This document shows positions 22,682 through 37,441 of a stretch of 64,000 bases of DNA, in pieces. The notes under the pieces are model-generated. The model was not told where the DNA came from. It was given only the letters and a program-made list of their open reading frames with translations, and did no database searches. The stretch covers positions 1-64,000 of the forward strand of contig JAAEOK010000080.1 in the NCBI GenBank assembly GCA_024244705.1, read 5' to 3'. The stretch is from Alphaproteobacteria bacterium. GTDB lineage: Bacteria; Pseudomonadota; Alphaproteobacteria; JAAEOK01. The position numbers and the translations under genes are program-made. How positions within the stretch are numbered: position 1 is the stretch's first letter; every line of letters starts with the position of its first letter.

Positions 22682-23185
22682 TCAGCGCCCGGCCAGGTAG
22701 GTCATGGCGAGGTCGCGGTCGGTGTCGTCGTCGAGCATGTCGTCGATCGCCGGCAACAGGCCCATCTCCTCTTTTTGGATGTGCGACATCAGGCGTTCGA
22801 CGAGTTCCCCGCCGAGGCGGTGGAACTCCTGCCAGCCGTCCGGCGTGAAGCCGTCCTTGGTGGCGGCCGCGGCCAACTCGGCCACGCGCTCGCCGAGCGG
22901 CAGGATGGTGCGATGCTCGTCGGTCAGGAAATCGCCGATATCGCCATCGCCGAATTCGGCGAGGCGGGGAAACATCTCTGCCTCCTCGAATGCGAAATGA
23001 TGGGAGACCTCGCTGCCGATGGCGGCCGAGAGCTCGTTCAGCGTCGGCCCGATGCCCGCCTCGTCGCGCGACGGCGCCTTGCGCGGCCCGCTTCGCGCCA
23101 ACAGATCGTCGAGTTTGTTGAGCAGGGTCAAGCTGGCGACGTGCTCGTCGTGGAGTATGCGGGTGATCTGATGGGTCGGTTCCAT
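22682..23185 (-). CDS. Hemerythrin-domain (HHE) protein
   Basis: The 167-residue protein has the HHE helical-bundle pattern for a non-haem di-iron centre: ILHDEHVASLTLLNKLDDLL near the start, VSHHFAFEEAEMFPRL in the middle, LTDEHRTILPLG, and HIQKEEMGLLPAIDDML near the end. Such proteins bind O2 or NO and often accompany denitrification genes. It is the fourth gene of a leftward run starting with hemA (hemA, DUF2249, membrane protein, this gene). A function in NO or oxygen handling is inferred from this setting. Confidence 0.85.
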   Translation of the reverse strand: MEPTHQITRILHDEHVASLTLLNKLDDLLARSGPRKAPSRDEAGIGPTLNELSAAIGSEVSHHFAFEEAEMFPRLAEFGDGDIGDFLTDEHRTILPLGERVAELAAAATKDGFTPDGWQEFHRLGGELVERLMSHIQKEEMGLLPAIDDMLDDDTDRDLAMTYLAGR

Positions 23186-23250: not shown

Positions 23251-24546
23251 TCAAGATCCGGCCTCGCGGACCGCGTTTCGGGTGCCGCCGCGCAACCGCA
23301 TGAAGAGGAGCAGCGCGAACAGGGCGAACGCGAGGGCGCCGCACAGTCCGAGCAGGGCGCCGGCGAGGACCAGCGTGACGCTGTCGATGGCAATGCCCGC
23401 GGTGACCAGAACCAGCGCCCCGAGGTGGCAGGCGGCGTGAACCTTCAACGGAATTTCCGCCGTCAATTCGGATACCAGGGGTGCCTTGCCGCCGCGCCGC
23501 GACCCATGCATCGATGCGAGAAAGGGAAGGATTCTCTGCAGTACGCCGAGCAGAAAGGTCAGCAACCAGCCGAAGATCAAGACGAAGCCGAACAAGGCGG
23601 GCCCGCGCGGTCCGGCCGAATCGAGCACATTTGCGGCACCGAGCAGGAGGCTCAACGGCAGCAGGGCCCAGGCGACGCGGATCAGAAAGAACGAGAGCCC
23701 GAGCCGCTTGCGCATGCGCGTCGCCAGAACTTGGCTCATGGTCAGGAGATGGAGGACGACCGCCGCCAACGCGACGGCCGAAGCGATCAGGACGAGGTTC
23801 TCGAAGCCGAAGACCAACCCGCCAGTGGCCAGCAGCAAGGCCAATACGGCGGCGCAAAATCCCGACCAGCTCAAGCGCGGGGAGGGCGCCGGGGAGAGGG
23901 CGAACATCGGCATCAGAACATGGCTGAAGCCAAGCGCCAGCATGCCCATGAAGCCGTAAGCGGCGACCACCACATGGGCGTGGGCGAGGGCCAGCCGGTC
24001 GCCGAGGAAACCCCGGTCGGAATCCAAGATCAGAACCATGCCGAGCACGGCCGCAACGATCAGCGATACCGCCGCGGCCCAGCCATAACCGGTGACAACG
24101 GGAAGCGACTTCGCCCGCCGCAGGTTATCGGCGAACACGACCACGAACACCGCCAGGGCGAGCACGATAGCCGTGCCGCCAATGACGAGCGGCGTCGGTG
24201 CGGCGGCCGCCATGCCGTGGCTCATCAAAGCGACCCCCGGCACCATCAGCCAAAAAATCAGCCGTGGCGGCCACAGCGCCGGCAGCGATTGGCGTGTGGC
24301 GACGGGCAGCAGCTGCAGCGCGGCGCCGGTCGCCGTCATGACTAGGACGCCCAGGGTGATCAGGTGCAACGACGACAGCGGCGCGCCCAATCCGCCGACG
24401 AAACCAGCCACGTCGGGCGCCGCCGCGACCAGCGCGGCCCAGCCGGCGACGTGGAAGACGACGGCGGCAGCGAAGAAGCTGAACGGGATCGAGGCCGGCA
24501 GCAACCGGCTCCGTGCGCCGCCGAGAAAAGTCGCCGCCAGGGTCAT
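23251..24546 (-). CDS. Polytopic membrane protein, haem-copper-oxidase-subunit-I/NnrS-like
   Basis: This 431-residue protein has about 12 predicted membrane segments. Histidines are placed as in small cbb3-like subunit I homologues and NnrS-type proteins: FHVAGW in helix 1, LHLITLGVLVMTATGAALQ in helix 2, and LALAHAHVVVAAYGFMGMLALGFSHVLMPMF in the middle. These could bind haem. It overlaps the DUF2249 gene by 4 bases and precedes the hemerythrin gene, so it belongs to a hemA-led set near NO-metabolism genes. It lacks the full catalytic His set of an oxidase, so a haem- or NO-related accessory role is more likely. Confidence 0.6.
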   Translation of the reverse strand: MTLAATFLGGARSRLLPASIPFSFFAAAVVFHVAGWAALVAAAPDVAGFVGGLGAPLSSLHLITLGVLVMTATGAALQLLPVATRQSLPALWPPRLIFWLMVPGVALMSHGMAAAAPTPLVIGGTAIVLALAVFVVVFADNLRRAKSLPVVTGYGWAAAVSLIVAAVLGMVLILDSDRGFLGDRLALAHAHVVVAAYGFMGMLALGFSHVLMPMFALSPAPSPRLSWSGFCAAVLALLLATGGLVFGFENLVLIASAVALAAVVLHLLTMSQVLATRMRKRLGLSFFLIRVAWALLPLSLLLGAANVLDSAGPRGPALFGFVLIFGWLLTFLLGVLQRILPFLASMHGSRRGGKAPLVSELTAEIPLKVHAACHLGALVLVTAGIAIDSVTLVLAGALLGLCGALAFALFALLLFMRLRGGTRNAVREAGS

Positions 24547-26517: not shown

Positions 26518-26619
26518 GGACGGCGATCCCACCCGCCCCTTTACTTGTCGGCACGATGCGGTGCGCCGTCCGCGGCGCATGATTTTCCGCACACCGGAAG
26601 CGACAAAGGGGAATTCCCG

Positions 26620-26787
26620 ATGAGCGACACCGATAACACGACGGACGGGGACGACGGTCCGGTGCCGATGATGCAGCGGATTCTCGACAATCCCTTTCTC
26701 CTGCTTTTCCTCGGCGTGACCATCCCGACGGTGTTCTATATCATTTGGGGGGTGATGGAGGTCGCCAACATCCCCCTGGCCAAGTAA
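26620..26787 (+). CDS. Small single-helix subunit of the haem-copper reductase
   Basis: The 55-residue protein has a hydrophilic N-terminus (MSDTDNTTDGDDGPVPMMQR) and one membrane helix (PFLLLFLGVTIPTVFYIIWGVMEV). It precedes subunit II by 13 bases, and an AAAGGGGA ribosome site lies before its start. It resembles the position and size of the subunit IIa helix that packs with subunits I and II in B-family ba3 oxidases. Sequence similarity to a known subunit cannot be shown by eye. Confidence 0.6.
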   Translation: MSDTDNTTDGDDGPVPMMQRILDNPFLLLFLGVTIPTVFYIIWGVMEVANIPLAK

Positions 26788-26800
26788 CGGAGGGCGCGAA

Positions 26801-27340
26801 ATGGCGATTAGCCCTCCGGAAAGACGGCTTTGGTGGAAAGAGCCGATCGGCCGCGCCGAGGTGATCTGGATTGCGGTCGCCTTCGTCTGGGGCCTGGTGA
26901 TGTTCTCGGCGATGATCTATTGGCACATCGTCGGCGAGCAGAATCTATCGAACGAGGCCTACCGCGTGGACCCCGAGGTCTTCGCCGCCAGGGCCGAGGA
27001 ATTGGCGGACAAATACAAAGTCCGCGAGGACGAGGTCACCGGTTACCCGATCGTTCACCCGCCGCCCGGCAGCGACATCTATTTGATCGCTCGGCTGTGG
27101 GAGTGGTGGCCGATCTTCGAGCTCGAAGAGGGACAGAACTACCGTCTTCACCTGTCATCCCTGGACTGGCAGCACGGCTTCTCCCTGCAGCCCGAGAACA
27201 TCAACATCCAGGTCCATCCGAACTACGATCTGGTGCTCACCGTGACGCCGTCCGAGGCGGGCGAATACAGCATCGTGTGCAACGAATTTTGCGGCATCGG
27301 CCACCACATCATGGTCGGCAAGCTGCTTGTCGTCGAATAG
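26801..27340 (+). CDS. Haem-copper reductase subunit II with CuA site
   Basis: The 179-residue protein has one N-terminal membrane helix (EVIWIAVAFVWGLVMFSAMIYW) and a periplasmic cupredoxin domain. CuA ligands are complete: the His of WQHGFSLQ, then C-x3-C-x3-H-x2-M in CNEFCGIGHHIM near the C-terminus. It is short, as in B-family (ba3) oxidases, and has no fused cytochrome c. It would take electrons from a periplasmic cytochrome c or cupredoxin and pass them to subunit I. GGAGGGCG precedes the start. Confidence 0.88.
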   Translation: MAISPPERRLWWKEPIGRAEVIWIAVAFVWGLVMFSAMIYWHIVGEQNLSNEAYRVDPEVFAARAEELADKYKVREDEVTGYPIVHPPPGSDIYLIARLWEWWPIFELEEGQNYRLHLSSLDWQHGFSLQPENINIQVHPNYDLVLTVTPSEAGEYSIVCNEFCGIGHHIMVGKLLVVE

Positions 27341-27353
27341 AGCGAGCGGGAAA

Positions 27354-29039
27354 ATGGCCAAAGCACCGACCTTTCGTACCTGTCCCGATACCGGCCTCAA
27401 GATCCATTCGCAAGCCGAGGCACTGATCAAGGCCAATGCGGTTGTGGCCGTGGTTTACCTGCTTGTCGGCGGGTTGCTCGGTCTCGGTGTCGCGTTGACC
27501 CGGTGGCCGGCGGTCCATCTTCTGGATGCGGAGACGTTCTATGCCGTCTTGACCGCGCACGGCATCGACGTGCTGCTGTTCTGGATCATCTTCTTCGAGA
27601 TGGCGATCCTCTACTTCGCGTCGGCCATACTGCTGAACAGCCGGCTCGCCGCGCCGTGGTTGGCCTGGGTCGGCTTCGCGATGATGCTGGTCGGCTCCGT
27701 GATCGTCAATTATGCGGTCCTGCAGGGCGAATCGAGCGTCATGTTCACGTCCTATGTGCCGATGCAGGCGGCTCCCGAATTCTATCTCGGCATCATCCTG
27801 TTCGCGGTCGGGGCGCTGATCGGCTGCATGGTATTCTTCGCAACGCTGGTCGTGGCGAAGGAAGAGAAGACCTATGAGGGTTCAGTCCCTCTGGTCACGT
27901 TCGGCGCGGTGGTGGCCGCGATCATCGCCGTCTTCACCATTGCCTCGGGTGCGATCATCCTCATCCCAACGTTCCTGTGGTCGGTCGGCATCATCAGCGA
28001 GATCGATTCCGTCGTCTATAAGATCGTGTGGTGGGGAATGGGGCATGCTTCGCAGCAGATCAATGTCTCCGCCCATGTCGCCGTATGGTACCTGATCGCC
28101 GCCATCGTCCTGGGCGCACGGCCGATCTCGGAGAAGGTCAGCCGATTCGCGTTCCTACTGTACATCCTGTTTCTGCAACTGGCCTCGGCGCACCACCTTC
28201 TCGCCGAGCCGGGCATCAGCTCGGAGTACAAGGTGTTCAACACCAGCTACGCGCTCTACCTGGCGGTGCTGGGCAGCATGATCCACGGCATGAGCATCCC
28301 CGGCGCGGTCGAGGCGGCGCAGCGCGCCAAGGGCTTCACCCACGGTATCTTCCAGTGGTTGCGGCGGGCGCCGTGGGGTAATCCGGCGTTCTCCGGCATG
28401 GCCCTGTCGCTTGTCATGTTCGGGTTCCTCGGCGGCATTTCCGGGGTCATCCTTGGCACCGAGCAGATCAATCTCATCATGCACAACACGCTCTATGTGC
28501 CGGGGCATTTCCATGCCACGGTAGTGGCCGGGACGACGCTCGCCTTCATGGCGGTCACCTACCTGGTGGTGCCGCTGATCTTCCGCCGCGAGCTGATTTG
28601 GCCCGGCTTGCTCAAATGGCAGCCCTACATCTTCGCCGTCGGCGTCGCCGGGATCTCGGTGTTCATGATGGGGGCCGGGACCCTCGGCGTGGCGCGGCGC
28701 CACTGGGACATCACCTTCAGCGACTCGATATTCAGCTTCGACTATCCGCCGGCGGCGTTCCTGATGATGGGTCTGAACGGGATTTCCGCGATTCTGGCCG
28801 CCCTCGGCGGGGTGATATTCATCCTCGTCGTCGTCGGCTCGATCCTGTTCGGCAAACGCCGCGAAGAAGCGGCGGCGCGCGAGGCGCCGATGCTGACCCC
28901 GGCGGCGATGACCTATGGCACGGCGGGCACCTGGCACCTGCCGGGGACCTATATCCTGGTCGGCGTCTTCTTCACCGCCTTCGTCCTCTACTACTTCATC
29001 AATTGGAAGTTCCTTTCCGAAGTGTGGCCTCTGAGCTAG
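27354..29039 (+). CDS. B-family-like haem-copper reductase subunit I, probable eNOR-type nitric oxide reductase
   Basis: The 561-residue protein has about 13-14 helices and all metal ligands: H69 (low-spin haem, LTAHGIDV), H231, H280 and H281 for CuB (WWGMGHASQQ; SAHHLLAEPGI), H385 and H387 for the haems (HNTLYVPGHFHATVV). Overall it resembles ba3-type (B-family) oxidases. The residue four after H231, tyrosine in oxygen reductases (GHPxVY), is glutamine (Q235), so the Tyr-His cofactor needed for O2 splitting is missing. This points to an NO reductase of the eNOR-like, CuA-containing type. Its box matches that of nirS. It also lies near nirS with no norCB. The start at 27354 removes a short non-homologous leader. 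Confidence 0.72.
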   Translation: MAKAPTFRTCPDTGLKIHSQAEALIKANAVVAVVYLLVGGLLGLGVALTRWPAVHLLDAETFYAVLTAHGIDVLLFWIIFFEMAILYFASAILLNSRLAAPWLAWVGFAMMLVGSVIVNYAVLQGESSVMFTSYVPMQAAPEFYLGIILFAVGALIGCMVFFATLVVAKEEKTYEGSVPLVTFGAVVAAIIAVFTIASGAIILIPTFLWSVGIISEIDSVVYKIVWWGMGHASQQINVSAHVAVWYLIAAIVLGARPISEKVSRFAFLLYILFLQLASAHHLLAEPGISSEYKVFNTSYALYLAVLGSMIHGMSIPGAVEAAQRAKGFTHGIFQWLRRAPWGNPAFSGMALSLVMFGFLGGISGVILGTEQINLIMHNTLYVPGHFHATVVAGTTLAFMAVTYLVVPLIFRRELIWPGLLKWQPYIFAVGVAGISVFMMGAGTLGVARRHWDITFSDSIFSFDYPPAAFLMMGLNGISAILAALGGVIFILVVVGSILFGKRREEAAAREAPMLTPAAMTYGTAGTWHLPGTYILVGVFFTAFVLYYFINWKFLSEVWPLS

Positions 29040-29051
29040 CTGGGAACCAGG

Positions 29052-29918
29052 ATGGGAAGCCTATTGAGAGAGGTGGGGTCGGTCTTCAAACTGCGGATCG
29101 GCCTCGCCATCACTTTCAGCGCGATGGCCGGGCTCGCCGTGACACCGGGCGATCTGCCGCCGGCCTGGAAGATCGCCGTGCTCGCACTCGCCGTCCTGCT
29201 GTCGTCGGCTGCCGCGGGAGCCTTCAACCAGTATGTCGAGCGCGACCTCGACGCGCGCATGGAACGGACCCGCAGGCGCCCCTTTGTCACCGGCGCCTTC
29301 CGTGTCGGTGCCTTATGGCCGACGATCATTCTCTTGGTGCTCGCGGTCGCCGTCGCGATGGCGGTTTGGGCGCTGAATGTCTTCGTCGCCCTCTATTTAT
29401 TCCTCGGCGCCTTCTTCTACGGTGTCGTCTATACGGTCTGGCTCAAACAACGCAGCAGCCTCAATATCGTACTCGGCGGGCTGTCGGGAAGCTTTGCGGT
29501 GCTTGCCGGCGCGGCCGCGGTGAACCCCGATTTGGCGCCGGCGCCGGTCATTCTCGCGATTGTCCTGTTCCTGTGGACACCACCCCATTTCTGGAGCCTG
29601 GCCACGGTTCTCCATCGGCAATATGCGGAAGCCGGGGTGCCGATGCTGCCGGTGGTGATCGGCGATGCCGCGGCGGCACGGGTGACGCTCTATCACACTG
29701 TCGCATTGGTCACGCTGTCGTTGGTTCCGTTCTATTTCGGGCTCGGTTGGATCTATTTGGCCGGCGCCGTTCTTGGCGGCGTCTATTTCGTGACCAAAAG
29801 CATAGCCTTGGTCCGCGATCCTGGCCCCGCCGCGGCGGCCTCGAATTTCCGCGCCTCGCTCATCCAGCTGTCGTTGCTGCAACTCGGCGCCGTCGTGGAC
29901 CGGCTCGCTCTCGGCTAG
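29052..29918 (+). CDS. ctaB: Haem O synthase (protohaem IX farnesyltransferase)
   Basis: The 288-residue UbiA-family membrane protein attaches a farnesyl group to haem B. The prenyl-diphosphate motif is AGAFNQYVERDLDARMERTRRRP (N-x3-D-x-D), and the second Asp/haem region is YTVWLKQRSSLNIVLGGLSG and FLWTPPHFWSLA. It follows the subunit I gene by 12 bases. Its presence inside the operon implies that the haem-copper enzyme carries haem O or haem A rather than haem B, unlike cNOR. Confidence 0.9.
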   Translation: MGSLLREVGSVFKLRIGLAITFSAMAGLAVTPGDLPPAWKIAVLALAVLLSSAAAGAFNQYVERDLDARMERTRRRPFVTGAFRVGALWPTIILLVLAVAVAMAVWALNVFVALYLFLGAFFYGVVYTVWLKQRSSLNIVLGGLSGSFAVLAGAAAVNPDLAPAPVILAIVLFLWTPPHFWSLATVLHRQYAEAGVPMLPVVIGDAAAARVTLYHTVALVTLSLVPFYFGLGWIYLAGAVLGGVYFVTKSIALVRDPGPAAAASNFRASLIQLSLLQLGAVVDRLALG

Positions 29919-29936: not shown

Positions 29937-30764
29937 ATGCGCATTGTAGCGGCCGCGGCCCTGATCGTGGCGTCGTGGATCACCGCCGCGGTCGCCGATG
30001 CCAGGGATCAAGCACCTTCAATCTTCGATCGCGATGCCGCGATCTCCTACAGCCAAGCGGCCATCGGCCGATCCTTGAGCGACTATGCCTTTCTCGATCG
30101 GGACCGCAAGCCGAGAAGGCTAGCCGACTTTCGCGGTAAGCCCCTGGTCGTCAACATGGTCTATACCGGGTGTATCTATTCGTGCCCCGTCGTCGTCCAG
30201 TCGCTCTATGATGCCATCGATGTCGCCGGCGAGGCGATCGGCAACGACGCGTTCCGAGTCGTCACCATCGGGTTCGATGCTCAGACGGACACGCCGGAAC
30301 GGATGCGGGCCTATGCCGACAGCCACGGAATCGATGCAGCGAACTGGGAGTTTCTCAGCACCGATGCCGATACCGCGCGGCAGTTGGCGGACGAGTTGGG
30401 ATTCGTGTTCGCGGAATCGCCGGTCGGATTCGAGCATATCGCGCAGACTTCCGTGGTCGACACCGACGGCCGCGTCTACCAGCACGTCTATGGCGCGAAT
30501 TTCGAACCGCCGGCGCTTGTCGAACCACTCAAGGCCCTGTTTCTATCCCAGCCGACCGCGCGACCGTCCATCGAAAGCCTGGTTGAGCGGATCCGCCTAT
30601 TCTGCACCAACTATGACCCGTCAAGCGGCCGTTATCAGTTTGACTACTCGATCTTTTTCATGCTGGTAATCGGTGGCGCGAGCCTACTTGGCATGCTCGC
30701 CGTCGCGGCGCGGGCCGGTTGGCGAACGTATCGGGCTCCGCTGCCGCCCCATCGAAAGGCATAA
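29937..30764 (+). CDS. SCO1/SenC-type copper chaperone with C-terminal membrane anchor
   Basis: The 275-residue protein has an N-terminal signal (MRIVAAAALIVASWITAAVA), a thioredoxin-like SCO domain with the copper ligands C79-x3-C83 (TGCIYSCP) and a later His in FEHIAQTS, and a C-terminal helix (IFFMLVIGGASLLGMLAVAA). SCO proteins load copper into CuA of subunit II, so it fits the CuA protein encoded upstream. The C-terminal helix is unusual, since most bacterial Sco proteins are anchored at the N-terminus. Confidence 0.87.
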   Translation: MRIVAAAALIVASWITAAVADARDQAPSIFDRDAAISYSQAAIGRSLSDYAFLDRDRKPRRLADFRGKPLVVNMVYTGCIYSCPVVVQSLYDAIDVAGEAIGNDAFRVVTIGFDAQTDTPERMRAYADSHGIDAANWEFLSTDADTARQLADELGFVFAESPVGFEHIAQTSVVDTDGRVYQHVYGANFEPPALVEPLKALFLSQPTARPSIESLVERIRLFCTNYDPSSGRYQFDYSIFFMLVIGGASLLGMLAVAARAGWRTYRAPLPPHRKA

Positions 30765-30808: not shown

Positions 30809-32395
30809 ATGGAGTCGGTGATTCTTGTCCAGACACCGCTCCGCGCCGGATTTGAGGTTGCGGAACGACTGCTCGACCGTTTCTTCGGGGCGGCGTGGAA
30901 CCCGTTATACAACTTGGGGGCGCTGGGCTTTTTCTATTTCTGGATCGTCGTGGTCAGCGGCATTTACGTCTATATCTTCTTCGACACCGGCACCACCCGG
31001 GCCTACGATTCGCTCGAGTACCTGACCCGCGACCAATGGTATCTCGGCGGGGTCATGCGCAGCCTCCACCGATACGCGTCCGACGGCCTGATTTTGATGA
31101 TGGCCGTACATATGTTGCGCGAATTCTCATTGGACCGCTATCGAGGGACACGCTGGTTTACCTGGTTTACCGGCGTGCCGATCTTCTGGCTCGTCGTTAT
31201 CTCGGGTATCACCGGCTATTGGCTGGTGTGGGACAAACTCGCCCAGTACGTCGCCATCGCGACGACCGAGCTGTTCGACGTGCTACCGATCTTCGGCGAG
31301 CCAATCGCCCGCAACTTTCTCACTCCGCTTAGCCTCGACAGCCGGTTCTTCACGCTGATGATGTTCATGCACATCGCGGTGCCGCTGACATTGCTGCTCA
31401 TTCTCTGGATACATCTGCAACGCGTGAGCCGCCCGAGAATAAACCCGCCACGCGGGCTCGCCGTCGGAACCTTCGCGATGTTACTCGTGTTGTCGTTCGT
31501 CCACCCGGCGGTGAGCCAAGCGCCGGCCGATCTCTCCGTGATTCCGGCGACGATCGGGCTAGATTGGTTCTACCTTTTCGGCTATCCGCTGATCGACATG
31601 TGGTCGGGGTGGGCGGTCTGGGCGTTCGCCATTACGGTGTCGTTGATGTTGGCAATATTGCCGTGGATGCCGCCGATGCGGCGCGCCTCGGCCGCGGTCG
31701 TGCATCTAGAGAGTTGCAACGGTTGCAGCCGGTGCGAGGCCGATTGTCCGTTCAATGCCATCACCATGGTGCCGCGCTCGGATGGTCTCGCGTTTGAGGA
31801 AGAAGCCGTCGTCAACCCGGCGCTTTGCGTCGGCTGCGGCATCTGTGCCGGCGCCTGTCCAACCGCCATGCCCTTCCGTCGCCGAGGCGAGCTGATCCCT
31901 GGAATCGAGCTCGCGGAACGTCCAGTCGCCGGACTTCGGCGCGAAGTGGAAGCCGCTGCCGAAGGATTGAGCGGCGATCACCGCGTTCTGGTGGTCGGCT
32001 GCGACCACGGCGTCGCGATCGGTGGCCTCAGGCTGGCAAACGTCGCCGCCGTCCGCCTGCCGTGCATCGGGGCGCTGCCGCCGTCCTTCATCGATTTCGT
32101 GCTCACCCGCGATCTGTTCGATGGCGTTCTGTTGGCCGGCTGCGCAGATGGCGAATGCTACAACCGCTTCGGAATAAGTTGGACCAAGCAGCGAATCGCC
32201 CGCCAGCGGGACCCCTATCTTCGCGGCCGGGTCGCGCGTGACCGGATCGGGTTCTGCTGGGCGGCGCCGAGGGAGGAGAAGAAATTGGCGCGTGAAGCCA
32301 AGAACTTCGCGGATAACCTGCCGACGGAATCCGGACCGCTGAACAAACCGGGGACCACGAGCCCGCCGCCGCGAGAGGCGACCATCGATGCCTAA
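30809..32395 (+). CDS. Cytochrome b / 2[4Fe-4S] ferredoxin / MvhD-like fusion protein
   Basis: The 528-residue protein has three parts. Residues 1-290 are a cytochrome b of the bc1/b6 type with two bis-His haem sites (H87-x13-H101 and H188-x13-H202) and a degenerate PEWY-like quinone motif (LDWFYLFGYP, about 251-260). Residues 300-352 hold two [4Fe-4S] motifs, C-x2-C-x2-C-x3-CP (CNGCSRCEADCP, CVGCGICAGACP). Residues about 390-480 resemble MvhD/FlpD, with cysteines at 398, 419, 445 and 450 (GCADGEC). The start at 30809 is the best Met before the first helix. It overlaps the next gene by 8 bases. A quinol-to-iron-sulfur role linked to the reductase is inferred. Confidence 0.75.
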   Translation: MESVILVQTPLRAGFEVAERLLDRFFGAAWNPLYNLGALGFFYFWIVVVSGIYVYIFFDTGTTRAYDSLEYLTRDQWYLGGVMRSLHRYASDGLILMMAVHMLREFSLDRYRGTRWFTWFTGVPIFWLVVISGITGYWLVWDKLAQYVAIATTELFDVLPIFGEPIARNFLTPLSLDSRFFTLMMFMHIAVPLTLLLILWIHLQRVSRPRINPPRGLAVGTFAMLLVLSFVHPAVSQAPADLSVIPATIGLDWFYLFGYPLIDMWSGWAVWAFAITVSLMLAILPWMPPMRRASAAVVHLESCNGCSRCEADCPFNAITMVPRSDGLAFEEEAVVNPALCVGCGICAGACPTAMPFRRRGELIPGIELAERPVAGLRREVEAAAEGLSGDHRVLVVGCDHGVAIGGLRLANVAAVRLPCIGALPPSFIDFVLTRDLFDGVLLAGCADGECYNRFGISWTKQRIARQRDPYLRGRVARDRIGFCWAAPREEKKLAREAKNFADNLPTESGPLNKPGTTSPPPREATIDA

Positions 32396-32891
32396 GATCC
32401 TTCGATATGCCGGTCAGGCCGCCGTCTATCTGCTGATCGCCGTTTTGTTTGGCTATTTTTCATCGGCGCCGTCTTATGTCCATTTCGATCCCGAGGCGGC
32501 GATGGTGAAGATCAGCTTCGCCCATGGCGCGAAGACGAAGGGCGAATGCCACCGCCGCACCGCCGACGAAATCGCCGAGCTTGCACCGAACATGCGCCGA
32601 CCCTTCGACTGCCCGCGCGAACGCCTGCCTGTGGTCATCGAGATCGAGCTCGATGGCGAATTGATGCTGAGCGAGACATTGCCGCCGACCGGACTGTCCG
32701 GCGACGGGCCGTCGCGGTTGTATCGAACGCTTGCCGTCGCGCCCGGCGCGCATCATGTGGTCGCCAGGTTGCGCGACAGCGACCGGGCCGACGGGTTCGA
32801 CTACGAGCGCGAAGTGACAATAGAACTCGACCCGCGGCAAATTTTCGTGATCGATTTCAAGTCCAGTGCCGGCGGGTTCGTCTTCATATGA
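32388..32891 (+). CDS. Membrane-anchored protein of unknown function
   Basis: The 167-residue protein has one N-terminal helix (AAVYLLIAVLFGYFS) and a likely periplasmic beta-rich domain with two cysteines (KGECHRR and PFDCPRER). The C-terminus reads VTIELDPRQIFVIDFKSSAGGFVFI. It overlaps the cytochrome b fusion gene by 8 bases, so translation is coupled and a common function is probable. I do not recognise the family; the paired Cys could bind a cofactor or form a disulfide. Confidence 0.65.
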   Translation: MPKILRYAGQAAVYLLIAVLFGYFSSAPSYVHFDPEAAMVKISFAHGAKTKGECHRRTADEIAELAPNMRRPFDCPRERLPVVIEIELDGELMLSETLPPTGLSGDGPSRLYRTLAVAPGAHHVVARLRDSDRADGFDYEREVTIELDPRQIFVIDFKSSAGGFVFI

Positions 32892-32930: not shown

Positions 32931-33341
32931 ATGGCAATTGATGCGATGGTGCTGATCGAGTGGAGGGATGAGTTCAAGACGGGGATCGCCGCCGTCGACT
33001 ATGAGCACGAATCCATGATCGGGCTGCTCAACGACCTCTACGCGGGCCTCGGGACGGAGGCATCAGCCGAGGAAATCGAAGACTTTCTCGGCGAGGTTTA
33101 TGCGCGGATTCAGGCCCACTTCGCGCTCGAGGAAAAGATGATGCGCGCAGCGGGCTATGACCAGTACGCCGATCACAAATCCGACCACGACCACCTTCTC
33201 GATGAGATTCGCGACATCATGGACCGCCACCACGATGGCGGCTACGAGAACTACGACGAAGATCTGGCGAGCCAGCTAAAGAGCTGGTTTGTCGATCATT
33301 TCCGCTACCGCGACTCCCGGCTCCACAAGGTCCTCGGCTAA
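32931..33341 (+). CDS. Bacteriohemerythrin
   Basis: The 136-residue protein is a single-domain bacteriohemerythrin: VLIEWRDEFKTGIAAVDYEHESMIGLLNDLY, then HFALEEKMMRAAGYDQYADHKSDHDHLL and the end motif LKSWFVDHFRYRDSRL. The iron ligands (DYEH, H-x3-E, HKSDH, H-x4-D) are in the expected order. It may bind O2 or NO. It lies 39 bases after the unknown gene, at the end of the haem-copper operon, so scavenging of NO or O2 near that enzyme is plausible. Confidence 0.9.
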   Translation: MAIDAMVLIEWRDEFKTGIAAVDYEHESMIGLLNDLYAGLGTEASAEEIEDFLGEVYARIQAHFALEEKMMRAAGYDQYADHKSDHDHLLDEIRDIMDRHHDGGYENYDEDLASQLKSWFVDHFRYRDSRLHKVLG

Positions 33342-33359: not shown

Positions 33360-35501
33360 TCAATCGCCGGCGGCGGCCAGGCGCTGGCTGAGTTTGCGTT
33401 GGCGGAGCAGGGGTGGGCATACCTCTTCGTCGTAGTAGTAGGCTTGGCAGTGCAGGCAGTGGATGCATTCGGCGGGATTGATCGCGCCGCGCGGCTGGAT
33501 CGCCTGAACCGGGCAGGTCACCGCGCATTGCTGACATGGATTGCCGCATTCGGAACGGCGCCGGAGCCAACGGAACATATGCAGGCGGGCGGGAAGCGCC
33601 AGCGCGGCGCCGAGCGGGCATAGGTAACGGCAGAAGACCCGCGGGACGAATAGGCCGGCGCCGAGGATCGTCACCGCATACAGCACGAACGGCCAGTTCC
33701 GGTCGAATTTGAGGATGATCGCCGTCTTGAAGGGCTCGATCTCGGCGGCGCTTTGGGCCAGCGGAGTGGCACCCAGCGATAAGCCGAAGATGACCAGGAA
33801 GATCACGTATTTGAGCGCGACCAGCCGTTCGTGAACCGCCGCCGGAATTTGCAATTGAGGAACCTTGAGCCAAGCCGCCAGCCGGTTGGTCAACTCTTGT
33901 AGGGCTCCAAACGGGCACAGCCAGCCGCAGAACACGCCGCGCGCCCAGAACAACATGGTCACGGCGACAAGACCCCACAGGATAAATATCAGCGGTTCGA
34001 GCAGGAAGGTATCCCAGGTAAAGCCGGTCCGCACCGCTTCGAGAAAGGTCAGGACGTTGAGCACCGACAATTGCGCGCCCATGATCCAACCGAGCCAGAC
34101 CAGGGTGAAAACGAGAAACCCGACGCGAAACCAAGTGTACAACCGCTGCCTACGGACGACCCAGTCCTGGAACAGCAGCGCCAGCAACAATACGGTCAGG
34201 GCGACCGCCAGGACCGCGATCTCGGTCTGCCGGCCCGACCACAAGACCTGCCACAGCGGAGCGCTGTCAGCAAAGTCCGGCGGCACGTCCGACCGCCGGT
34301 AGCGGTCGGGAAGCGAATACGCGCCGGCAAAGACCGCACGGATATCGGTTTCACTGGGTTCGCCGGCGGGAACCAAGAGCTCCAGGCGCCACGGCATTCC
34401 GGGGTCGAACCCGCGCCCGCCCTCGACACGGAACAGAGCGAGGTCACGAAGTACGGGCGCGCCTCCGACAGCGAGATCGGCGATGCGCCGGTAGTCCTCG
34501 CGGTGCAGGGGGAAGCTGCGGTCGCCCTGGACGATCTGGACCCGGTCGAAGACCCCGCTGCGGATGTAAGCCGTTCCCTTGAACGACATCGCGCCGCTGC
34601 CGCCGACAAATATCAGGTGGTCGCCGGCGGCGAGATCCGCCGTTTCGCGGTTGTACGCCTTTTGGCCGAGCAGGTTTTGACCGACGCGGGCCGGTGTGGC
34701 GAGGCCGAACGCGATTTCGATGAGCGCCGTTTCCGCCGGCGGGGCCGTCACCCCCTCAGGGAATAGGCGGCCGCCCTGCTCGGCGAGCCGCTTCTGCGCC
34801 TCGCCAACGGAAACCCGGAGTGGGACCAGGGAACCGTCCGCGAAGAGGGCGTCCCAGTCCGCGGCACTGTACTCTTCGAGCACCAGGCCTTGCGCGCCCA
34901 AGAGGCCGCGGCTCATCGCGACAGCGCGCGCGGCGCGGAGGATCGTGTCGTTGATGACGATCGAGGAAACGGTGGCGCCGGTGACGGCGTCGATGGCAGG
35001 TGCCGTCGCCCCACTTACCTCGATCACCGACACCGGCGATCGAATGTCGAGGCCGATATATTGCTCGACGAAGGCGGTGAGATCGGCGTCGGAAACGCCG
35101 ATTACCAGGATCGGCTCGTGGTGTTCCAGGATGCGAACGCCGCGGATGATGCCGTCGGTATCGACTGCGACGAGGATGTCCATCGGTTTGCCCGAAAACC
35201 CCTTCGACCGAACGACGTTCTGCGTCGACAGAATATACCCGGCAACCTCGCCGTCCGGCCGGGTGACCTTGCGGGTCGGCGGGCTGCCGTCGCTGGGCCC
35301 GACCCATGCGGCCCCGGGGAACGCGCTCTCGAGCCAGGCGGCGTCGATTTCCGCATCGGCCGCCGCGCGCCCCGGTGCGATGTCGACGACGAGCAGAATC
35401 ACGGCGACGAAAAGACCGCGCAATAGGGTCATCCCCCACTGACCGAAATCGGGGCCGGCCTTCGCCCATTTCGCCGCCAAATTACGCAATGCCAACCACA
35501 C
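33360..35501 (-). CDS. nirI: NirI/NosR-family flavo-iron-sulfur membrane protein
   Basis: The 713-residue protein has an N-terminal FMN-binding periplasmic domain (GATV in VTGATVSSI; a covalent-FMN threonine is typical), a membrane part of about six helices with the CX3CP motifs CGWLCPFGALQ and CRYLCPLGAAL, and C-terminal iron-sulfur motifs CGNPCQQCAVTCP and CIHCLHC. NirI is needed for nirS expression or activity in Paracoccus, NosR for nitrous oxide reductase. Because it is divergent from nirS and no nosZ is seen, NirI is preferred. The start is GTG at 35501; an ATG at 35432 is possible. Confidence 0.85.
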   Translation of the reverse strand: MWLALRNLAAKWAKAGPDFGQWGMTLLRGLFVAVILLVVDIAPGRAAADAEIDAAWLESAFPGAAWVGPSDGSPPTRKVTRPDGEVAGYILSTQNVVRSKGFSGKPMDILVAVDTDGIIRGVRILEHHEPILVIGVSDADLTAFVEQYIGLDIRSPVSVIEVSGATAPAIDAVTGATVSSIVINDTILRAARAVAMSRGLLGAQGLVLEEYSAADWDALFADGSLVPLRVSVGEAQKRLAEQGGRLFPEGVTAPPAETALIEIAFGLATPARVGQNLLGQKAYNRETADLAAGDHLIFVGGSGAMSFKGTAYIRSGVFDRVQIVQGDRSFPLHREDYRRIADLAVGGAPVLRDLALFRVEGGRGFDPGMPWRLELLVPAGEPSETDIRAVFAGAYSLPDRYRRSDVPPDFADSAPLWQVLWSGRQTEIAVLAVALTVLLLALLFQDWVVRRQRLYTWFRVGFLVFTLVWLGWIMGAQLSVLNVLTFLEAVRTGFTWDTFLLEPLIFILWGLVAVTMLFWARGVFCGWLCPFGALQELTNRLAAWLKVPQLQIPAAVHERLVALKYVIFLVIFGLSLGATPLAQSAAEIEPFKTAIILKFDRNWPFVLYAVTILGAGLFVPRVFCRYLCPLGAALALPARLHMFRWLRRRSECGNPCQQCAVTCPVQAIQPRGAINPAECIHCLHCQAYYYDEEVCPPLLRQRKLSQRLAAAGD

Positions 35502-35671: not shown

Positions 35672-37441
<1,770 letters not shown>

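Follow-up and report, generated by a model that had tools for sequence, protein, structure and literature searches.

We describe a protein that carries a cytochrome b, a ferredoxin with two [4Fe-4S] sites and an FlpD/MvhD-like domain in a single chain, and whose co-occurrence with the nitric oxide reductase eNOR is near-obligate in Proteobacteria. With the reserve that it may be mentioned in a 2024 PNAS paper on NOR diversity, this fusion, which constantly accompanies eNOR in these bacteria, has not been described before; our open-literature search, which covered eNOR, MvhD/FlpD and cytochrome b, returned no description of it. eNOR, a possibly proton-pumping NO reductase, is now counted in denitrifier surveys. 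As eNOR is often annotated as an oxygen reductase, the fusion can serve as a genomic marker for eNOR denitrifiers. We also found no description of the electron supply of eNOR in Proteobacteria, a question made directly testable by a partner that is nearly always present and has an exchangeable head on its cytosolic side.

Architecture of the fusion and its operon

The fusion gene occupies positions 30809 to 32395 on the forward strand of the window, the 64,000-nucleotide stretch of DNA that was analyzed, and encodes 528 amino acids in one frame without interruption. Pfam families match above their gathering scores in three places: Cytochrome_B at residues 31–204 (E = 1.4e-23), Fer4/Fer4_7 at residues 302–353 and FlpD at residues 410–504 (E = 2.2e-11; 44.3 bits against a cut-off of 22.3). 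The cytochrome b domain (30899–31447, forward strand), which is also recognized by its homology to cytochrome b6/bc1, contains the four core helices and two haem-binding pairs, H87-x13-H101 and H188-x13-H202. By the same homology, H87 and H188 would bind the p-side haem and H101 and H202 the n-side haem. The position of the quinol-site motif PEWY, in the interval between helices E and F, is occupied by L251-D-W-F (LDWF; 31559–31570, forward strand), as placed by alignment of homologues. The ferredoxin domain (31694–31867, forward strand) has two complete sites, C303/306/309/313 and C340/343/346/350, and the FlpD/MvhD-like domain (32000–32320, forward strand) has four conserved cysteines, C398, C419, C445 and C450. 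Canonical MvhD has five cysteines, the fifth in a CxxC motif, and it is this fifth cysteine that is missing from the fusion. C419, C445 and C450 align with the cysteines of the CSGR and GCxxGDC motifs of MvhD in solved chains 9sw2_D, 5odc_D and 8rvu_F. Among solved chains, the N-terminal part is nearest to cytochrome b6 and the C-terminal part to MvhD.

All four haem histidines are retained (100%, 49/49 homologues), D252-W253 is invariant in the same set, and each of the 12 cluster cysteines (eight in the ferredoxin, four in the FlpD domain) is conserved in at least 98%. The one row of the 49 that lacks the cluster cysteines is an NADH-type paralogue, described below. Since the haem ligands, the D-W pair and the cluster cysteines are conserved across these homologues, our reading of the fusion is not a product of chance, and the order of cytochrome b, 2[4Fe-4S] ferredoxin and MvhD-like domain in one frame, as given in the original prediction, holds. 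The ferredoxin domain begins ~10 residues past the last membrane helix. From homology to bc1/b6f, the part of the chain that follows helix F, including the ferredoxin domain, is expected to be cytoplasmic; the D-E loop, with four K/R and no D/E, is consistent with this orientation. An AF2 model of the fusion (pLDDT 50) is too poor to test geometry. In public databases the protein is annotated as "cytochrome b N-terminal domain-containing protein."

The fusion is encoded within an operon for a haem-copper enzyme. On the forward strand, a small one-helix subunit (26617–26787), which is kept upstream of coxB, is followed by subunit II (26801–27340), with a complete CuA site (CxExCGxxHxxM), subunit I (27354–29039), a member of the haem-copper oxidase family with the motif HASQQ and thus Gln at the Tyr position, ctaB/cyoE (29052–29918; a UbiA-family protein by Pfam, named haem O synthase from a homologous plasmid operon) and a SCO1/SenC copper chaperone gene (29937–30764; Pfam). 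The fusion gene comes next, followed by orf32388 (32388–32891) and a hemerythrin gene (32931–33341; Pfam), which adjoins the operon in alphaproteobacterial loci too. Beyond these lie a NosR/NirI-like flavo-polyferredoxin membrane protein (33360–35501, reverse strand; profile matches) and nirS (35687–37441, forward strand), which encodes cytochrome cd1 nitrite reductase and, accompanied by d1-haem genes, opens a nir cluster that runs to 44578.

The signature of eNOR is Gln at H+4 in place of the cross-linked Tyr, together with a cupredoxin subunit II (PMC8756737). Because HASQQ places Gln at H+4 and a CuA subunit II is encoded just upstream, the haem-copper genes beside the fusion are, by these sequence features, eNOR genes, which gives a definite class to what had been predicted as an NO-reductase-like operon. 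HxxQQ occurs in the related subunit I proteins with a readable motif, including those of Thermus and Thermomicrobium, and CxExCGxxHxxM is present in 41/43 subunit II homologues. Haloarchaeal plasmid matches that resemble eNOR by similarity contain HPVVY, which marks them as oxygen reductases, and were dropped as a comparison. Elsewhere in the host genome, a NorC-like cytochrome c and a 458-amino-acid haem-copper-like protein are encoded together (L107:4492-6436, on host contig C30); this is not a standard cNOR. The 458-amino-acid protein keeps the HH pair and lacks the CuB histidine of helix VI, and we rejected its assignment as cNOR for want of this ligand.

The same eight-gene order is found in Rhodospirillales MAGs (L016-L018) and in one other genome (G044), and many other genomes of the phylum have the same order, mostly without hemerythrin. 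A complete eight-gene operon is also carried, with no nirS nearby, on a 165-kb plasmid of Defluviimonas sp. SAOS-178 (L070, NZ_CP156080.1), which is evidence that the eNOR-cytochrome b operon can move as a unit. In Thermus and Thermomicrobium, the eNOR plasmid loci hold just the small subunit, subunit II and subunit I, with the addition of haem O synthase in Thermomicrobium, and no cytochrome b module is present nearby. Since these loci lack it, we regard the cytochrome b module as an accessory of eNOR in Pseudomonadota and not as one of its intrinsic subunits, a view in which its distribution outside Pseudomonadota is judged from plasmid records only.

Several other genes were noted around eNOR. 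Hemerythrin-domain proteins flank the eNOR region on both sides (22682–23185, reverse strand, and the forward-strand gene at 32931–33341). A 431-amino-acid multi-helix membrane protein encoded at 23251–24546 (reverse strand) has no Pfam match even at E = 5, and weak homologues of it are encoded near eNOR in two other loci (L114 and L138). In one eNOR cluster, senC and the cytochrome b genes are separated by a U32 peptidase gene, another gene similar to it and an SCP2 gene (L149:4477-6958); these are UbiU/UbiV/UbiT-like, resembling proteins of oxygen-independent ubiquinone synthesis.

The constant partner of the fusion is orf32388, a small protein absent from the original prediction, which had not described the head exchange discussed below either. 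It was found in 23/150 genomes, every one of which carries the fusion. It has an N-terminal transmembrane helix and a predicted periplasmic beta-sandwich, the latter seen in its AF2 model (pLDDT 75). It has no Pfam match even at E = 1, a fold search returned nothing below E = 0.019, and it contains no recognized redox motif and no conserved His/Met copper motif. Its cysteines are missing in one family (L059).

Co-occurrence and co-divergence with eNOR

Partnership was examined in a single sample of 399 genomes of the phylum, each searched for the fusion, eNOR and nirS, with 34, 30 and 51 positives, respectively. Fusion and eNOR occur together in 29 of the 399 (Fisher p = 8e-38), which bears out the predicted association with a Gln-type haem-copper subunit I. 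Since a large share of the positives comes from one family (f98), we also give the genus-level figure: 14/14 genera with the fusion fall within the 15 that have eNOR, among 213 genera (p = 5e-21). In the sole genome with eNOR alone (G120), the contig ends directly after senC and cuts the operon. Of the five genomes with the fusion alone, four (G172, G277, G328 and G196) have it on short or truncated contigs and the fifth (G188) is 77% complete.

The two proteins also diverge together. Pairwise distances of the fusion and eNOR subunit I are correlated (Mantel r = 0.70, permutation p = 0.0005, n = 29), and the corresponding value for eNOR and its own ctaB is r = 0.76. Distances of nirS are not significantly correlated with those of eNOR (r = 0.19, p = 0.11) or of the fusion (r = 0.12). 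Moreover, the fusion and orf32388 may lie apart from eNOR within a genome: they are 15–20 kb away in two genomes (G117 and G136) and unlinked in four (G087, G097, G124 and G101). Where the fusion has relocated beside nirS (L062, L063, L113, L114 and L115), ctaB and senC remain with the eNOR structural genes.

As the fusion often adjoins nirS, we considered nirS as its true partner, a candidate that we rejected on both co-occurrence and co-divergence. Given that fusion and eNOR occur together even when unlinked, that they diverge together and that half of the nirS genomes (25/51) lack the fusion, the sequence comparisons identify eNOR as the partner and make proximity to nirS secondary. The same evidence bears on whether the fusion is simply a passenger of denitrification islands, inherited with nir and eNOR genes and having no specific functional link to either. 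Although its frequent position beside nirS and its one plasmid-borne copy would suit a passenger, we consider this very unlikely, as it predicts neither the many nirS genomes without the fusion, nor the lack of co-divergence with nirS, nor the association with eNOR in the absence of linkage.

Head exchange and possible functions

If the fusion is a partner of eNOR, in which direction do electrons move through it? A paralogue offers a clue. In this protein, the same cytochrome b part is followed by C-terminal plant-type [2Fe-2S], FAD and NAD domains. It is ~650 amino acids long (for example, L065:10637-12619, on the reverse strand) and is found in other eNOR operons of one order (L137-L156). 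Within this order, which includes G416, 20/250 genomes have the cytochrome b, and ~18 of these 20 have the [2Fe-2S]-FAD-NAD paralogue. Two genomes have only the NADH form (G465 and G534) and one only the ferredoxin-FlpD form (G457). Usually both lie in one cluster, in the order small subunit, coxB, coxA, ctaB, senC, the paralogue, orf32388, the fusion and a divergent haem-copper protein. Copies of the NADH form are monophyletic (tree support 100/99) and retain their FAD, NAD and cluster motifs; their head is ~36–45% identical to reductases whose annotation reads CDP-6-deoxy-glucoseen reductase or 2Fe-2S protein.

Two further variations were seen. The divergent protein resembles haem-copper subunit I and has GGHVLQF in helix VI (L059:11490-12869, L065:7124-8557 on the reverse strand, L137:12038-13369, L146:13264-14586 and others). 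It comes after orf32388 or the fusion, in many copies the two adjacent CuB histidines seem to be missing, and it is possibly a sensor or a degenerate NOR. In the genomes of one family (f89; L050, L051, L059 and L066), the ferredoxin-FlpD form is present in two tandem copies, which form two sister clades within the family.

Because the ferredoxin-FlpD head has been naturally swapped for an NADH-reductase head, the cytosolic half of the fusion is, as far as domain comparison tells, an exchangeable electron head. It is almost certain that the NADH head accepts electrons, so that the simplest function common to both forms would be to feed the b haems with electrons from the cytosol. We therefore favor, tentatively and at somewhat less than even odds, the idea that the fusion is a dedicated, cytosol-fed b-haem module through which electrons enter the membrane for proteobacterial eNOR. 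The head would accept electrons from a soluble reductant, passing them from FlpD to the two [4Fe-4S] clusters, or from NADH to FAD to [2Fe-2S] in the paralogue. From there they would cross the membrane by way of the inner haem, bH, and the outer haem, bL, and continue to the quinone pool or to a contact on the periplasmic side, possibly organized by orf32388, and so to the CuA of eNOR. NO reduction would then proceed without relying on bc1 alone. A quinone site at bL would be in keeping with the conserved D-W motif. In this scheme the inside location of the C terminus, the direction of flow and the identities of the donor and the final acceptor are our inferences. Several observations count against electron entry: the gene is missing near eNOR in Thermus and Thermomicrobium, so the module is not intrinsically needed; eNOR keeps CuA, so an ordinary cytochrome c route can feed it; and orf32388 contains no recognized redox motif. 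We also know of no precedent for transfer from haem bL to CuA without Rieske or cytochrome c.

The main rival of electron entry is a role in maturation, to which we give perhaps one chance in a handful. Like CcoG or CrpH, the fusion may be a transmembrane reductase powered from the cytosol that supplies Cu(I), or reduces SCO, while the CuA and CuB sites of eNOR are assembled, with orf32388 taking the role of the Ig-like domain of CcoG. CcoG, a cupric reductase whose gene lies next to the cbb3 genes, combines two [4Fe-4S] clusters with an Ig-like domain in the periplasm (PMC7558416), and CrpH is a b-haem membrane protein that supports haem-copper enzymes (PMC13038864). A maturation role would suit the position of the fusion gene, directly after the assembly genes ctaB and senC in most operons, the transmembrane anchor and beta-sandwich of orf32388, and the retention of CuA in eNOR. 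However, ctaB and senC stay behind with eNOR when the fusion moves next to nirS, and orf32388 has neither a copper motif nor, in one family, its cysteines. In addition, full conservation of the p-side D-W motif and of both haems goes beyond the obvious need of a metal reductase, and the eNORs of Thermus and Thermomicrobium manage without the fusion.

Electrons might instead flow inward, with quinol oxidized at LDWF and the haems and clusters relaying its electrons to a soluble cytosolic partner of FlpD. This was part of the original prediction, in the form of a coupling of quinol to a soluble low-potential carrier. D252-W253 is invariant at the PEWY position, FlpD domains normally dock to Hdr or hydrogenase, and the ferredoxin-FlpD part resembles the C terminus of HdrA2. 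Nevertheless, we consider inward flow improbable, since the interchangeable head is an NADH:[2Fe-2S] reductase, which points to cytosolic input, and transfer from quinol to NAD+ is strongly uphill. Also, no HdrA/HdrBC, other Hdr or hydrogenase gene is present in the conserved neighborhoods of the fusion. A variant that we judge more doubtful still is that quinol is bifurcated at LDWF, driven by NO: one electron would go to the CuA of eNOR for reduction of NO to N2O, and the other through bL, bH and the head to NAD+ in the NADH form or to a low-potential carrier in the ferredoxin-FlpD form. If true, this would amount to Qo chemistry of the bc1 type, with an NO reductase standing in for Rieske and a soluble carrier for the Qi quinone.

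The other function originally predicted, that of a one-protein substitute for bc1 feeding eNOR, finds little room. The cytochrome b fold, both haems, the PEWY-like motif and the location in an eNOR operon are all compatible with it. However, the same genome encodes a bc1 complex elsewhere, with Rieske and a 431-amino-acid cytochrome b (L105), the conserved operon contains no gene for a Rieske, cytochrome c1 or cytochrome f partner, and neither a Rieske nor a haem-c domain is part of the fusion. Nothing in bc1 corresponds to the cytosolic head, and eNOR occurs in Thermus and Thermomicrobium with no such gene beside it. We regard substitution for bc1 as a very remote prospect.

Relation to known redox modules

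By these sequence comparisons, the fusion does not belong with the cytochrome b of bc1/b6f, with CcoG, with MsrQ-type proteins or with ExtP. It shares with bc1 cytochrome b, and with b6 plus subunit IV (PF00033, PF13631), the fold, the two haem pairs formed by four histidines, the haem Gly and Arg, and a PEWY-like motif between helices E and F. It differs from them in having LDWF or LDWY for PEWY, a change of Glu to Asp, in the iron-sulfur domains that follow helix F, and in standing apart from any Rieske or c1/f partner. In NCBIfam, the best match of the cytochrome b part is ExtP (NF040969), from selenite/tellurite reduction operons, and helices E-F match ExtQ (NF040970), although both scores are far under the equivalog cut-offs (107.8 versus 290 bits and 27 versus 150 bits, respectively). 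ExtP and ExtQ are two separate proteins with no ferredoxin-FlpD part, whereas the fusion is one chain.

For the cytosolic half, the closest parallels are MvhD/FlpD and the ferredoxin-MvhD tail of HdrA2, with which the fusion shares the FlpD signature and the order of ferredoxin followed by FlpD. It differs from these in lacking the HdrA flavin domain, in the loss of one of the five MvhD cysteines and in the attached membrane cytochrome b. Judged by its score, the FlpD domain appears to be a true FlpD that has no Hdr or hydrogenase partners nearby. CcoG/FixG resembles the fusion in being a membrane protein that holds two [4Fe-4S] clusters, is encoded next to a haem-copper enzyme and has a periplasmic beta-sandwich as domain or partner. 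Unlike the fusion, CcoG lacks a cytochrome b fold and FlpD, and the CcoG families Fer4_5 and FixG_C have no Pfam match in the fusion.

A functional analogy may lie closer to hand. MsrQ-like and PepSY-like reductases with a C-terminal NAD domain place a cytosolic NAD(P)H head on a haem-containing membrane conduit that serves extracytosolic redox reactions (PMC8238504). Their membrane fold is PF01794 or PepSY, as opposed to PF00033 in the fusion and its paralogue, and PF01794 has no Pfam match in either protein. By analogy with these NADH-headed conduits, the paralogue may work in the same way, and so may the fusion. The pair is an unusual case in which the same cytochrome b carries two unrelated cytosolic redox heads.
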